DNA of 64,000 nucleotides from Methanosarcina sp. MTP4. GTDB lineage: Archaea > Halobacteriota > Methanosarcinia > Methanosarcinales > Methanosarcinaceae. Made by a program: the position numbers and the translations under genes. Shown here one piece after another: positions 347-29,295 of this stretch (its first letter is position 1; the number at the start of each line of letters is the position of its first letter). The notes below the pieces were generated by a model. That model worked only from the letters and a program-made list of their open reading frames with translations, made no database searches and was not told the origin of the DNA. The stretch lies in assembly GCF_000970045.1 (NCBI RefSeq), contig NZ_CP009505.1, positions 3,124,808 through 3,188,807 on the forward strand. Direction: 5' to 3'.

Positions 347-1031
347 TAAATCACCATTTTGATAAAAGTATATGATCGAACAATTGCAAGTAAATCAAGT
401 AAATATTATTGACAATAAGACAAGTAAAGTAGCGCGAATAATATATAAATAGGTTACGCCGTTAACAACCCGAAGCAAAAACAATGCCATAAGAGCCAAT
501 AAGAGAATAGTTTGGAATATATATAGACAAAATAAAATAGAAGTCAATAAGGAAAGCAAGTAAATTTGATTCGAAAATGAATAAAAGCAAAGAATATTAT
601 GCAAATTATGCATAAACAATAAAAAAATATAGAAACAGCTTGGATCCCCAAAAGAGAAAGGAAGGCTGACTAAAGAATTGAAAAAAACAACAGTGAGGAG
701 AAAAATAAAAAAGAAAAAAATGGAGGTTATATCCGCAGATTGAGATCGTTTTTGAACCCGGAAGAAAGGTTCAGGATGGCAGAGCGTTTTAAAAGCAAAG
801 CAAATCAATTTAACTTGTTTTTACAATTAAACATTGAACATCATGATACATAAAGATTTCTATTGATATCGTAGACTGAGTATTCTTTGCAAGAACCTAA
901 AGTCACAGGGAAAAAGTAATGAATTCGAAATAAACTTCACTTGATTTAGGAAACGAAAAGGAAAAAATTAAAAAAGAAAGGAAAAGGGAAAAGAGAAGAA
1001 AAGAGTCTTTGAAAATTTACCAACCGAAAAG
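347..1031. other. Intergenic, AT-rich, no gene seen
   Basis: A long AT-rich spacer between the 5' end of cbiM and the 3' end of the VTT-domain gene. An open frame of 137 codons exists on the minus strand (395-808) but its product is a run of Phe, Leu, Ile and Ser without family features, as expected from translated AT-rich DNA. The cbiM promoter should lie just right of 346, where TATA-like AT stretches are present. I see no riboswitch fold I can support. Confidence 0.5.
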
Positions 1032-22953: not shown

Positions 22954-23208
22954 TCTTATTCTCGGGTTTATTTATAAAGTCTGTAAGATTTAACTGTTAT
23001 ATCATGGGGTATAAAAGATTATATTTTGAAGCTAGTTTAATAGTCATCGATTTTGTTCTAATTACGTTGATGATAATAAAAAATTGAAAAATGGTAAAGT
23101 GGGCGTTAACCTTATGTGCACAAATTCTTTTTGGGTGCAGGAGATAATCTATCAGGACCATCCCAAAATCGGAAATTTTTTTATTTAGTAAAACACCATA
23201 TAGAAATC

Positions 23209-23730
23209 ATGACAGAGGGGTCCAGAAATATTGGCACTCAAATTTTAGTAGGTGTTGTTGTCATAGTTGCGGCGAGTTTAGTTGTTGAACTAATTAATGC
23301 ACCCCAAATTATTCCAGTAGAAGATAACTATGGTAATATTGTACCAGAAACTATCACATTTAATACCAACGGGGAAGTTTCAGATGGATTTTCATTAATG
23401 CTCAGAAATACTGGAGACGATGATGGGAATATCTATGTGAAAATAAGATCTGATGAAATACTCTCAAGAACTGATAATAGAGAGAACTTTGAAACAACTA
23501 GTGAAAAAATCTACTTCGTAGAAAGAAAACAAAACGCACGGTTTAATTTTGACTTGAAATTGAATGAAAATGCAGAAAACATTGATAACTTCACCATAAC
23601 TGTAACTTGTGGTTGGACTAAAATAATGAATGGAAAAACTCTTAACAGTCACGACACGGGCACTCAAGTTTTCATGTATAAAAAAGTAAGTAATTCTTGG
23701 GAAAGAAATAGCAAATATGTACTATCATGA
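23209..23730 (+). CDS. Membrane-anchored surface protein, unknown
   Basis: 173 residues from ATG 23209. A TTTTATTTAGTA box about 25 bases upstream points to a leaderless mRNA; an in-frame start at 23116 would add 31 residues upstream of that box. Residues about 9-28 (TQILVGVVVIVAASLVVELI) form one membrane helix, and the rest is a beta-rich, Asn- and Asp-rich extracytoplasmic domain that resembles a CARDB/Ig-like fold (SDGFSLMLRNTGDDDGNIYVKI). No family recognised. AT-rich like the next genes. Confidence 0.7.
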   Translation: MTEGSRNIGTQILVGVVVIVAASLVVELINAPQIIPVEDNYGNIVPETITFNTNGEVSDGFSLMLRNTGDDDGNIYVKIRSDEILSRTDNRENFETTSEKIYFVERKQNARFNFDLKLNENAENIDNFTITVTCGWTKIMNGKTLNSHDTGTQVFMYKKVSNSWERNSKYVLS

Positions 23731-23945
23731 TTAAGCTGTGGAGAAATTGCATGATCTTTTTTCGATATTCTGCTCGGATCCTGGCTAGACCCCCCTTTCC
23801 AAATACTCCAGAATCCCATTTCATGCCGTCCCAGAGGCTCTGTGGGAGGGGTGAGTGTTAAAGTCTTAATTTTAGAAGAAACTGTAATGGAAACAAGTTC
23901 CAGTGAATATAAGGCTTGGTTATTTGTTAACTATGAAATGCAAAA

Positions 23946-25340
23946 TTATAATCCTAGTTGTGTTTTTATATAATTAACTGCTCCAAATAACATAGGTATC
24001 TTGCTAACATTCTGCAATAGTATGCCACTCTCTTGGATAAAATTTTTTACTAATGATATATCAGAGTTAACTTTTTCAAGTTCATCTAATGCTCTCTTAA
24101 TTGTATTTTTGATTTTTACTTTTTCACTTGTTTCAACATCTAAGTCATCTACATTTTCAATTACCTTGCTCAGAGTAATAATAAGTTCATTTTTATGTTC
24201 ACTATTTAACTGTATAGTAGTCCCTGTTGAATTTGATACAAATGAATTGTTCCCATAATTATTTCCCACATGACCATAATTATTTCCTATGTATGTCACA
24301 TTAATATCCTCTTTTTTTGATAGGCCTTCCTTGAGAATCCATATATCTTTGCTAACAATAAATTTGTATGTCCCCCCAAATTTCTTAAATATGAAATAAA
24401 AATCAATTTTATCATTAGAGCTAATATTTTGGATTTCCTTCTCAAGATCATCTTCAATGTAAATATGGTACGTTTTGTAATTTTCAATTTCTACTTCTTT
24501 ATTGAATAAACATTTATCATTATAGTTTATAAATAAATTACAGTTAGATAATGAACCATAACCATCATTAACAAAAGATATTTTTCCATCTTTTATTGTC
24601 ACATCTGTTATTAATGGAAAAAACAAATAGCCATATTTCTCAAAAAGAAGCTCATCATAATTATTCGGTTTTAAATTAGTTTTGTATGGTAAATATCGTT
24701 CCACATTATCATTGGAATAAACCATTTGTACAACATCTTTAATTTTAAAATCTGTATAATGTTGATACACACGATTCAATTTTGATATAATTGAACCAAT
24801 ATCATCAGGCTCATATTCAGACTCAATTAAAAGTTTTGTATACTTTTCCTCCAATAAATCTAAAATATCAACATCATAATTTTCTATAAATGTTATGGAA
24901 ACAATCGACTTCAAATCTTTTCCAACAACAATATTTCCAGTTGGAGTAGATAAGTCAACCTCTTCAATTAATCTATTATTGACAATTATCCACACACAAT
25001 TGTAAAATAATCGCATCCAAACGCTATTTAATTCATCCACTCTTCCAGCATAATTTTTTACAATCAATTTCATTGTAGTTTTCATGAATAAATATGATAG
25101 GCATATTGTTGAATTCTCGATAGTCCAGTTCATTAACCGAACATAAAAATCGATATCTTTATTTGCTACATTTGACATTTTTTCAATAATTAAGCTCCTA
25201 TAATCAGAGTTTGAAATGTTATTAGAAACGATTTCATCTAATTCTAGAGCTAAATCATCTAAAGCAAGCCCCTTGTATCGATCTTCAAGCATTCTTTGAA
25301 AAATACATGAGATTTCATCAATTTCAGTCAATGGGGACAC
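23946..25340 (-). CDS. Unknown protein B of an overlapping AT-rich gene pair; helical, beta-sandwich and GNNYG-linked C-terminal parts
   Basis: 464 residues, not recognised. GTG 25340 is the longest start; TTG 25331 has a GGTG six bases upstream and may be the real one. Residues 1-200 are helical. About 245-335 look like a beta sandwich (VTIKDGKISFVNDGYGS..., YKTYHIYIEDD, FGGTYKFIVSKD). Residues 350-372 are a Gly/Asn linker with two GNNYG words (352-356 and 359-363). Residues 380-464 form a charged helical module ending in SKIPMLFGAVNYIKTQLGL. Such Gly/Asn linkers between a recognition region and a short helical module occur in prokaryotic conflict proteins, but that comparison is from memory. 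The 17-base overlap with protein A means translational coupling. Confidence 0.75.
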   Translation of the reverse strand: MSPLTEIDEISCIFQRMLEDRYKGLALDDLALELDEIVSNNISNSDYRSLIIEKMSNVANKDIDFYVRLMNWTIENSTICLSYLFMKTTMKLIVKNYAGRVDELNSVWMRLFYNCVWIIVNNRLIEEVDLSTPTGNIVVGKDLKSIVSITFIENYDVDILDLLEEKYTKLLIESEYEPDDIGSIISKLNRVYQHYTDFKIKDVVQMVYSNDNVERYLPYKTNLKPNNYDELLFEKYGYLFFPLITDVTIKDGKISFVNDGYGSLSNCNLFINYNDKCLFNKEVEIENYKTYHIYIEDDLEKEIQNISSNDKIDFYFIFKKFGGTYKFIVSKDIWILKEGLSKKEDINVTYIGNNYGHVGNNYGNNSFVSNSTGTTIQLNSEHKNELIITLSKVIENVDDLDVETSEKVKIKNTIKRALDELEKVNSDISLVKNFIQESGILLQNVSKIPMLFGAVNYIKTQLGL

Positions 25341-26259
25341 CAGATAAAATATCTAACGATGTTTGATTGTGAGCAATTTTATGCTTTGTAGGCAAGCAGT
25401 AAAGCTCCTTACTAACAATCTCATCATATATCTTTCTTGCATATTCATAGAACTTAATCTCAATTTCATCATCTGAATCTAAGTCAATCCATGAAAGTTT
25501 AGGAAATTCTAATTCAATCTTACCTTTGCCATTAATTTCAAATTTTATTTCATATTCTTTTCCTAAATCATCATGCCCAGAGACTATACTTGATTTGAAA
25601 CCTGTTATAATTATATTATTAGTTTCCTTAAGCTCTTTTATTCTTACAGCATTGGGATCCAATATATTATGAGTTTCAGATTTATAGTCTGCTTGTTGAG
25701 TTGTTCCAAAACCCAGTTCTTTTACAGGATTAAAACTTATCTCAAATAAATTATTTTCAAATTTATCAAAACATAATTTTCTTAATTCCCATTCATTAAA
25801 TCCCAATTGTTTTGGTTGAGAGCTTGTTAAAAAATATTTATATTGTGAAAAAAGACGCTCATTTTTAATACTTCCCCCATTGAAGACAAGTAAATTAAGA
25901 TAGTTATTTTCGTCTGGAAAATTATCTACATGTAGAGTAGATACGATTAAATTTTTTATTTTGAAGGAATTCCTTGATAAATATTCTTTTGTTTGAGGGT
26001 CAAATGCAGCACTTGAATGACGTCGATCGCCCATTTTAGCAAATAACAGATGAATACTTTTTTGATTTTTTTTGACGTCAATACATCCAAATTCACGTCC
26101 ACTTTTCAGTAAGTTTTTTTTGAAGTGTTGACTCATTTTATCTGAATCAAATGAGTACTTAGTTTCATATCTAAGAATTGATAATTTTTTATGTGCATTG
26201 ATATCAAAAGATGCATTATCAGGTTCCCATTCAAAAGGTAAATCTGCTTCAAAAGTCAT
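25324..26259 (-). CDS. Unknown protein A of an overlapping AT-rich gene pair
   Basis: 311 residues, no family recognised. ATG 26259 is about 25 bases from the box TTATAAAAATG (26277-26288), so the message is probably leaderless. No signal peptide or membrane helix is seen. The protein mixes charged helices and strands; notable are KNQKSIHLLFAKMGDRRHSSAAF (about 63-85), SSQPKQLGFNEWELRKLCF, and NIIITGFKSSIVSGHDD. No nuclease, NTPase, kinase or HTH motif can be named. It is the first gene of the two-gene unit with protein B and is strongly AT-rich, unlike the housekeeping genes around the region. Confidence 0.75.
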   Translation of the reverse strand: MTFEADLPFEWEPDNASFDINAHKKLSILRYETKYSFDSDKMSQHFKKNLLKSGREFGCIDVKKNQKSIHLLFAKMGDRRHSSAAFDPQTKEYLSRNSFKIKNLIVSTLHVDNFPDENNYLNLLVFNGGSIKNERLFSQYKYFLTSSQPKQLGFNEWELRKLCFDKFENNLFEISFNPVKELGFGTTQQADYKSETHNILDPNAVRIKELKETNNIIITGFKSSIVSGHDDLGKEYEIKFEINGKGKIELEFPKLSWIDLDSDDEIEIKFYEYARKIYDEIVSKELYCLPTKHKIAHNQTSLDILSGVPID

Positions 26260-26276
26260 ATAAACACAACATATTG

Positions 26277-26288
26277 CATTTTTATAAC
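26277..26288 (-). promoter_or_regulatory. TATA box of the A-B gene pair
   Basis: On the minus strand TTATAAAAATGC lies about 25 bases before ATG 26259. This is the only good promoter for the pair; protein B overlaps A and has none of its own. Confidence 0.5.
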
Positions 26289-26539
26289 ATTATGTGTCCA
26301 ATTAATAAAAAGTTTAGTAGTGATAATATCGTTTTTTTAAGTCCAAACCCTGAAGGTTTCTACTACGGTAGGTATTAAATAGAGAAAGTTTTTGGGCTTT
26401 TTGGCCTACTTGAAGAAGCGCTTTGGCTTAATGAATAATTTGGTGCATTATTCCCCGAGAGTGGATAGGACAAACCACTTCTTACGATGTAAGCAAGCAA
26501 GCCAAGCAGAAGGTTGCGAAACTTTCCAAAAAAACCGCA

Positions 26540-26715
26540 AGGGAGCGAACAAAACCGAATCAAATACAACCGGAAAAAATAGTCTTTTTCAGATCTCTTT
26601 TTATTTTGCTGAGGGCCGCCAGGCAAGCTGGCGGAGGCATCCATTAACATCTAATTGAAAAACGGTTTCCGGGCTAAAGGAAATAATCCAGATATGTTTT
26701 CTCCTGCGCGGCACG
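26540..26715 (+). repeat. Direct repeat element, left copy (contains CCGCCAGGCAAGCTGGCGG hairpin)
   Basis: About 175 bases that match 28310-28485 in the same orientation. Shared words include CAAATACAACCGGAAAAA, TTGCTGAGGGCCGCCAGG, CATCTAATTGAAAAACGG, GCTAAAGGAAAT and TTCTCCTGCGCGGCA. The centre is the palindrome CCGCCAG-GCAAG-CTGGCGG. The region before it (26260-26540) is AT-rich without a gene. Confidence 0.88.
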
Positions 26716-26858
26716 GAAAGAAGGAGCTTAAGGCCCTATTCTTATTACTTAATATAATATCAACCGAATACAAATGGACCATCAACATTTCCTTTACCTG
26801 GGAAAATTGGATAAGCTTTTTCAATATATGTTAGGTTCACAACCTCATTTAGATTATT

Positions 26859-27732: not shown

Positions 27733-27942
27733 TTAAAATCCTGAACCGTCTGGTATTCCATCTCCTGAGTTTGGTGCTGGACCTTTAAAGTCTATTACTG
27801 GATTTGGATCTCCATTATGGATTGGATTATCCATTCCTGAACCGTCTGGCATTCCATCTCCTGAGTTTGGTGCTGCTGCCATAGCATTGCAACTTAATCC
27901 AATTAAGATTAGTAATCCCATTAAAATTGCAATTTTTCTCAT
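27733..27942 (-). CDS. Small secreted protein with duplicated PNSGDGxPDGSG motif
   Basis: 69 residues with a clear signal peptide (MRKIAILMGLLILIGLSCNAMA). The mature part has two copies of APNSGDGMPDGSG/APNSGDGIPDGSG separated by a DNPIHNGDPNPVIDF spacer. A GGTGAT ribosome site precedes the ATG. The mature form would be a small acidic, Gly/Pro-rich exported peptide; no function is known to me. Nucleotide repeats follow the peptide repeats, indicating a recent duplication. Confidence 0.8.
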   Translation of the reverse strand: MRKIAILMGLLILIGLSCNAMAAAPNSGDGMPDGSGMDNPIHNGDPNPVIDFKGPAPNSGDGIPDGSGF

Positions 27943-28084: not shown

Positions 28085-28276
28085 CTATATTCCCCATCCT
28101 TCTAGCCTTTCCCTTAAATGAGCATTCAAGCTAAACGGTTTATCCGCTTCAGCATTCTTCTTCATGTAATGGAGTGTACCTTTTGAGAACCCCATTTTCT
28201 TCCACTCAGTATAAGATACACTCTTAGAAAACCCCAACTGTTTCCAATCAGAATAAGGGATATTGAGCCTAATTAC
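28085..28276 (-). pseudogene. Truncated gene remnant, C-terminal helix-turn-helix-like tail (Cas1/casposase-like?)
   Basis: An open minus-strand frame of 63 codons with no start, ended by TAG 28085-28087 and cut on its 5' side just before the right 175-base repeat. The peptide contains the tandem words YSDWKQLGFSKS and YTEWKKMGFSKG and ends GTLHYMKKNAEADKPFSLNAHLRERLEGW. From memory this resembles the HTH-like tail at the C-terminus of some archaeal Cas1 proteins, including those of casposons, but I cannot verify it. The rest of the gene is gone. Confidence 0.5.
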
Positions 28277-28309
28277 CTACATAAAACCCAAAACCTGCGA
28301 GGGTGCAAA

Positions 28310-28485
28310 CAAAACCGAACCAAATACAACCGGAAAAATATTCATTTTCAGAAATCTTTTTCATTTCTTTTTGCTGAGGGCCGCCAGGCAAGCTGGCGGA
28401 GGCACCCGTTAACATCTAATTGAAAAACGGACTCCGAGCTAAAGGAAATATTCCAGATATGCTTTCTCCTGCGCGGCATGGAAAA
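28310..28485 (+). repeat. Direct repeat element, right copy
   Basis: Second copy of the 26540-26715 element, same orientation, with the palindrome CCGCCAGGCAAGCTGGCGG intact. It ends a few bases before the 3' end of the AMMECR1 gene, in GC-rich chromosomal DNA. Confidence 0.88.
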
Positions 28486-28513
28486 AAATCCAGAAGCTGA
28501 CGCAGCCGAAAAT

Positions 28514-29119: not shown

Positions 29120-29149
29120 GTATGAACCAACACCCCTTGTTTGAAAATC

Positions 29150-29295
29150 AATAACATCAAAACATCAAAACATCAAAACATCATAACATCAAAACATCAA
29201 AACGTCAATAACATCAAAACATCAATAACACCAACAACATCAATAAATAAATAAATAAATAAATAAATAAGTAAGTAAGTAAAAAGTAAGTAAAA
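29150..29295. repeat. Simple repeats AACATCAAA and AAATA
   Basis: About ten copies of a 9-10-base AACATCAAA unit pass into an (AAAT)n and (AAGT)n tract. On the minus strand this is a U-rich tail just after the pgk stop codon (29323). Confidence 0.92.

Follow-up and report, generated by a model that had tools for sequence, protein, structure and literature searches.

A low-GC gene pair in Methanosarcina sp. MTP4

The window, that is, the whole stretch of DNA analysed here, comprises 64,000 nucleotides of contig NZ_CP009505.1 of Methanosarcina sp. MTP4, whose genome (4.21 Mb, a single contig) harbors the gene pair described below once. The two genes, hereafter A and B, lie on the reverse strand (Table 1), at the positions given by the initial annotation and with the overlap of 17 bases (25324-25340) noted there. 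Their AT-richness relative to the flanking housekeeping genes is likewise evident, as the GC content amounts to 0.29 for A and 0.27 for B versus 0.54 in the MFS transporter, AMMECR1-like, and phosphoglycerate kinase genes. A single upstream region is common to A and B, and its TATA-like TTATAAAAAT is kept in the closest homologue, so that of the shared TATA box initially proposed the conserved element stands, while its role as a promoter is putative. Neither protein could be assigned to a family, housekeeping or other, in Pfam, PADLOC, PHROGs, or NCBIfam, even at E ≤ 10, once chance matches such as the weak single-protein hits to Goodbye, DpnII-MboI, CdiI_4, and similar models were set aside; PADLOC profiles gave no match at all to A or B at that threshold, and sequence searches of the PDB yielded nothing useful.

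Table 1. Features of the A-B locus (window coordinates; B domains in residues)
Feature	Position	Strand	Description
Protein A	25324..26259	-	First gene of the pair; 311 aa with a predicted RdgC/RexA/Iml3-type fold; would bind DNA as a dimer
Protein B	23946..25340	-	464 aa; GTG start at 25340; proposed effector
Domains of B (AlphaFold2)	1-236; 244-332; 344-376; 380-462		Helical; Ig-like beta; disordered NNYG-rich linker; C-terminal helical
Upstream region common to A and B	26260..26318	-	TATA-like TTATAAAAAT; putative function
Casposase (Cas1) remnant	28094..28222	-	Residues 355-397; 43 residues, 81% identity to the intact casposase of G117
Remnant of tRNA-Leu-like casposon target site	23797..23849	.	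81% match to G002 (L033:4000-4053)
Membrane-anchored 173-aa protein	23209..23730	+	Beyond the target-site remnant; N-terminal membrane segment
Dispersed hairpin repeat	26530..26722	.	Outside the unit; second copy at ~28228-28487

Distribution and conservation of the pair

A-B is absent from three other genomes of the same genus. Within 186 genomes of the order Methanosarcinales, A was found in six and B in five, and all seven copies of A (in six genomes) have B directly downstream on the same strand, so the two genes were never encountered apart. In the intact pairs, A and B either overlap by 4 to 26 bases or are separated by 7-8 bases; the seventh, truncated copy lies on a short contig of genome G042, where the start of B follows A before the sequence diverges. 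One of the carriers is Methanolobus vulcani PL 12/M, whose copy was also the sole match in a search of a genome-contig collection. A profile of A retrieved no further relative from 393 genomes of the phylum (a weak match in G365 is a 545-aa unrelated ORF and was rejected as chance), nor were direct relatives found in the viral-contig, plasmid, and phage collections. The dN/dS values of A and B range from 0.16 to 0.24, which are rough figures because synonymous sites are near saturation, and indicate purifying selection. The pairing of the two genes and the purifying selection on them can be taken as shown.

The pair is carried by casposons

Casposons are mobile elements from which the Cas1 enzyme of CRISPR is held to have come. 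The clearest carrier of A-B, an intact one, was found in genome G117, where the pair adjoins a Cas1 gene (Pfam Cas_Cas1, 1.6e-66), at 193 bp from this casposase, within an element that also holds HTH, HNH, and family-B polymerase (DNA_pol_B) genes. The element is delimited by 32-nt terminal inverted repeats (189520-189551 and 206193-206224), with A-B inside, and by a target duplication of 17 nt that overlaps the 3' end of a tRNA-Leu gene. The element is a casposon, with Cas1, PolB, HNH, inverted repeats, and tRNA target duplication all present, and its layout, together with an adjacent second element, fits the description of MetPsy-C1 of Methanolobus psychrophilus R15 (PMC4046053).

In the window, B, A, and cas1 follow each other on one strand in the same order, and the DNA similarity to G117 runs from 23952 to 26318, covering both genes and continuing for about 60 bases upstream of A. 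No terminal inverted repeat was found for the window copy, in which the casposase is reduced to a fragment. The unit therefore reaches past the limits first drawn for it, up to this fragment, although the positions of A and B themselves stand. Casposase fragments are also found beside the pair, upstream of A, in G155, while around three of the seven pairs (two in G151 and one in G136) no casposase was seen over about 8 kb, and the contig of G042 ends too early to show whether one adjoins.

The orthologous locus, defined as the interval between the MFS and AMMECR1-like genes, contains a casposase remnant without A-B in two sister species, of 268 residues and accompanied by an unrelated membrane protein in G001, and short in G003; in G002 it is broken off by the contig end. 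In G002 and G001, a tRNA-3'-end-like sequence is followed by the casposon-end motif GGGGATATAGGTAACAGCAAAAAACGGAACTC, which also adjoins tRNA-Leu at the casposons of G117, where it forms the casposon boundary, and of G115. Part of this site is preserved in the window at 23797-23849, and the matching stretch of G002 leads into the tRNA-3'-end-like sequence and the motif. The T-arm-like sequence in G001 and G002 was considered as a tRNA gene, but ARAGORN finds none, and it is better read as a remnant of a casposon target site. Taken together, A-B is, in essence, established as casposon cargo, which bears out the initial view of a mobile-element module, and the simplest reading of the window is that a tandem casposon site decayed here and left A-B intact. 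A second casposase fragment lies elsewhere in the host genome (G000:C1:2350546-2350665), and some 80 bases from it the dispersed hairpin repeat of Table 1 occurs again (2350407-2350467).

Two neighbors that the initial annotation had associated with the pair need to be separated from it. The 173-aa protein facing A-B does have an N-terminal membrane segment and a similarly low GC content (0.33), but its only other copy in the 186 genomes is located at the tandem casposon site of G115, just past the target-site duplication. The order there is that of the window, namely casposase, cargo, target-site copy, and then the relative of the 173-aa protein on the other strand, and the gene probably derives from the neighboring element of a tandem array rather than from A-B. 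The hairpin repeats that were thought to surround the unit belong to an unrelated dispersed repeat, for which the genome gives 28 matches; the two window copies, 91% alike, flank the 87-aa ORF region of the decayed casposon. In the same part of the window, a 69-aa ORF (27733-27942) has an N-terminus resembling a signal peptide and contains an internal repeat (APNSGDGMPDGSG / APNSGDGIPDGSG), and a short AACATCAA-type tandem repeat occupies 29143-29259, between the AMMECR1-like and phosphoglycerate kinase genes.

Predicted structures of A and B

The AlphaFold2 model of A (pLDDT 74.6, pTM 0.72) was built on only seven sequences. In a Foldseek search of the PDB, its top match was E. coli RdgC (E 3e-5, probability 1.00, with a moderate TM-score of 0.41-0.43), followed in the ranking by CENP-N and Iml3 chains, while RexA itself was not among the 50 best fold matches. 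In a library of viral structures, phage proteins matched the model at a probability of 1.00, one of them named "exonuclease", a label that is also applied to phage RdgC. Lambda RexA, RdgC, Iml3, and Chl4 have one common fold (PMC11077077). At the sequence level, hhalign found no relation of A to lambda RexA (probability 0.3%, E 0.22) or to E. coli RdgC (probability below 1%), and no RdgC profile in Pfam or NCBIfam matched at E ≤ 10. Since the fold matches and the profiles do not, we describe A as probably having an RdgC-type fold, on the strength of the model, and do not claim membership in the RdgC or RexA family. The Kiwa protein KwaB was considered as an identity for A and dropped, because A has no PADLOC match and KwaB is not among the 50 best folds.

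The model of B (pLDDT 80.3) shows a multidomain protein without a transmembrane segment (best 19-residue hydropathy 1.1), for which no significant overall fold match and no known toxin fold were found. In a profile search with B, three further archaeal genomes gave matches to the C-terminal module (per-genome E values of 2e-6 to 4e-5), in each case in a small protein with a glycine-rich stretch of the GNVxxGxxSGxVAIGE type. Two of these three small proteins are encoded directly upstream of STAND NTPases that bear the same glycine-rich stretch, and the third adjoins a TPR protein that bears it as well. The relationship of the C-terminal region of B to two of the small proteins is seen in hhalign as well (probability 92%, E 7e-7, 67 columns), and these small proteins also match PDC-M14B, a PADLOC candidate family, over its C-terminal part. 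These sequence relationships point to an assembly or adaptor module of conflict systems at the C-terminus of B. The glycine-rich small proteins with the B-type module at L103:1438-1812, L104:1408-1818, and L105:1420-1881 look like paired adaptor modules.

Defence genes in the cargo slot of related casposons

Strong casposase matches were present in 48 of the 186 genomes. When 20 related casposons were sampled, the slot downstream of the casposase contained known defence families in 10 (L072, L073, L074, L075, L076, L078, L080, L082, L087, and L089), which is an association only, as it comes without a random-locus control. Type I restriction-modification was found in six loci (five by testing and the sixth, L076, by its sequence resemblance to L072), at least two of which are close relatives, and a KAP NTPase, a STAND-TPR protein, and an Mrr-type endonuclease were found in one each. 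A SIR2-like protein occurs within 6 kb of the casposase in one of the 20 loci. Restriction enzymes and other defence functions are among the casposon genes reported by Krupovic and colleagues (PMC4046053). Since defence genes often occupy a fixed slot by the Cas1 gene in the sampled elements, casposons look like carriers of immunity genes. It is possible that the cas1-adjacent slot is a general defence cargo slot of casposons, in which case new archaeal defence systems could be sought there; to our knowledge, few such systems have been tested in methanogens. As a separate observation, look-alike ORFs with the pattern FVAF[IV]DISGFK ... FVSDC.ILF are located beside A-B in L015 (10927-11568) and beside the casposon STAND gene in L078 (3221-3913). 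Neither has a Pfam match and the one in L015 has no PADLOC match either, and a further ORF without a known family follows each of them, so these may be another cargo pair.

Proposed function

On balance, a defence role of A-B appears more probable than not. The initial suggestion of defence gains by association, through the company in the slot, the RexA/RdgC-type fold predicted for A, and the occurrence of the B module beside STAND NTPases, but not from the PADLOC profiles. For the more specific proposal, that A-B is a casposon-borne antiviral module, probably of the abortive-infection type, that works in a manner analogous to RexAB, we consider the chances about even. RexA binds DNA and shares the RdgC fold (PMC11077077, PMC12894663), and it has been proposed to detect phage DNA or protein-DNA complexes and to switch on RexB, a membrane effector (PMC12894663). 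By analogy, the best available guess is that A is the sensor and B the effector. In this reading, the pair is a two-gene cargo of tRNA-Leu-directed casposons that was kept intact here while the surrounding casposon decayed. A, with its RdgC/RexA-type fold, would dimerise on DNA and sense abnormal DNA or protein-DNA states that arise in virus replication. B, either held by A or recruited via its helical domain, would be the effector; its flexible linker and its C-terminal helical module would associate with further B molecules or with partners and halt growth. DNA binding, sensing, the A-B interaction, the effector activity, and the target are all inferred. It is a more tentative possibility, to which we give somewhat less than even chances, that A-B represents an undescribed type of archaeal abortive-infection casposon cargo, in which a DNA sensor of RdgC/RexA fold controls a soluble effector with a STAND-type adaptor module. 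If so, the methanogens that carry A-B would possess a RexA-like DNA sensor coupled to a partner of a new kind.

Given that A-B lies beside the casposase inside an intact casposon, and that RdgC in E. coli binds DNA and restrains RecA (PMC11077077), the pair could instead serve the element itself, with the RdgC-like A protecting casposon DNA or modulating recombination or replication during transposition and B as its partner. This is the strongest of the alternatives, though an unlikely one, since a service function is hard to reconcile with a strong casposase in 48 of 186 genomes and A in only six, with the pairs of G151 and G136 that lack a casposase in the surrounding 8 kb or so, with an intact A-B next to a decayed casposase in the window, and with the defence genes that other casposons carry in the same slot.

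Slightly less likely still, A-B may be an addiction pair resembling toxin-antitoxin systems, which would stabilise the element and in which B would be toxic and A its restraint. Restraint of one partner by the other is described for Gp30/Gp31 of mycobacteriophage Butters in the summary given by PMC12894663, and the tight overlap, strict co-occurrence, location in mobile and variable DNA, and retention after decay of the element would all agree with it. However, defence modules, too, would be expected to outlast the decay of their element, both proteins are large for a simple toxin-antitoxin pair, and B lacks a known toxin fold. Least likely of all is a non-defence accessory function, for instance in chromatin organisation or DNA repair, for which the RdgC-like fold of A and the RdgC-like operons with a histone and a membrane protein in Halobacteria (PMC11390915) could be cited, but which fits poorly with the sparse distribution, the mobile-element location, the company in the cargo slot, and the different partner genes.

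Comparison with known systems

The antiviral reading can be placed against several described systems. As for the carrier, the Methanosarcinales casposons of the MetPsy-C1 type share Cas1, PolB, HNH, HTH, inverted repeats, and the tRNA target duplication with the element of G117, whereas decay has left the window copy with no more than a casposase fragment of these; the excerpted text of PMC4046053 does not describe A-B as a module. PDC-M14B and the STAND-linked small proteins have in common with B its C-terminal helical module, to which B adds the N-terminal helical and Ig-like domains and a pairing with A; no STAND NTPase adjoins A-B.

RdgC of E. coli and phages resembles A in predicted fold and in length, but A has no sequence similarity to it, is paired with B, is mobile cargo, and is sparsely distributed in archaea. 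An archaeal RdgC-like protein in a conserved operon is also known from the RdgC-histone operon of Halobacteria and Bacillus (PMC11390915); going by its description, that operon joins the RdgC-like protein to a histone and a membrane protein as partners, and the protein itself carries two additional small domains.

The parallel drawn above is with the phage-exclusion system RexAB, of lambda and of the Pseudomonas putida prophage P1. In both cases adjacent genes are carried by mobile DNA and the first encodes a soluble protein of about 300 aa with an RdgC fold, predicted in the case of A. In contrast, A shows no sequence similarity to RexA, RexB is a small membrane protein whereas B is a soluble multidomain protein of 464 aa, and RexAB is prophage-borne while A-B resides on archaeal casposons. 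With a soluble B that has no relation to RexB, the effector step cannot be that of RexAB. A-B is best read as RexAB-like and not as RexAB-homologous, and, if the more tentative possibility given above holds true, the RexA-type sensing principle would have come about in archaea, or spread there, together with an effector of an unrelated kind.
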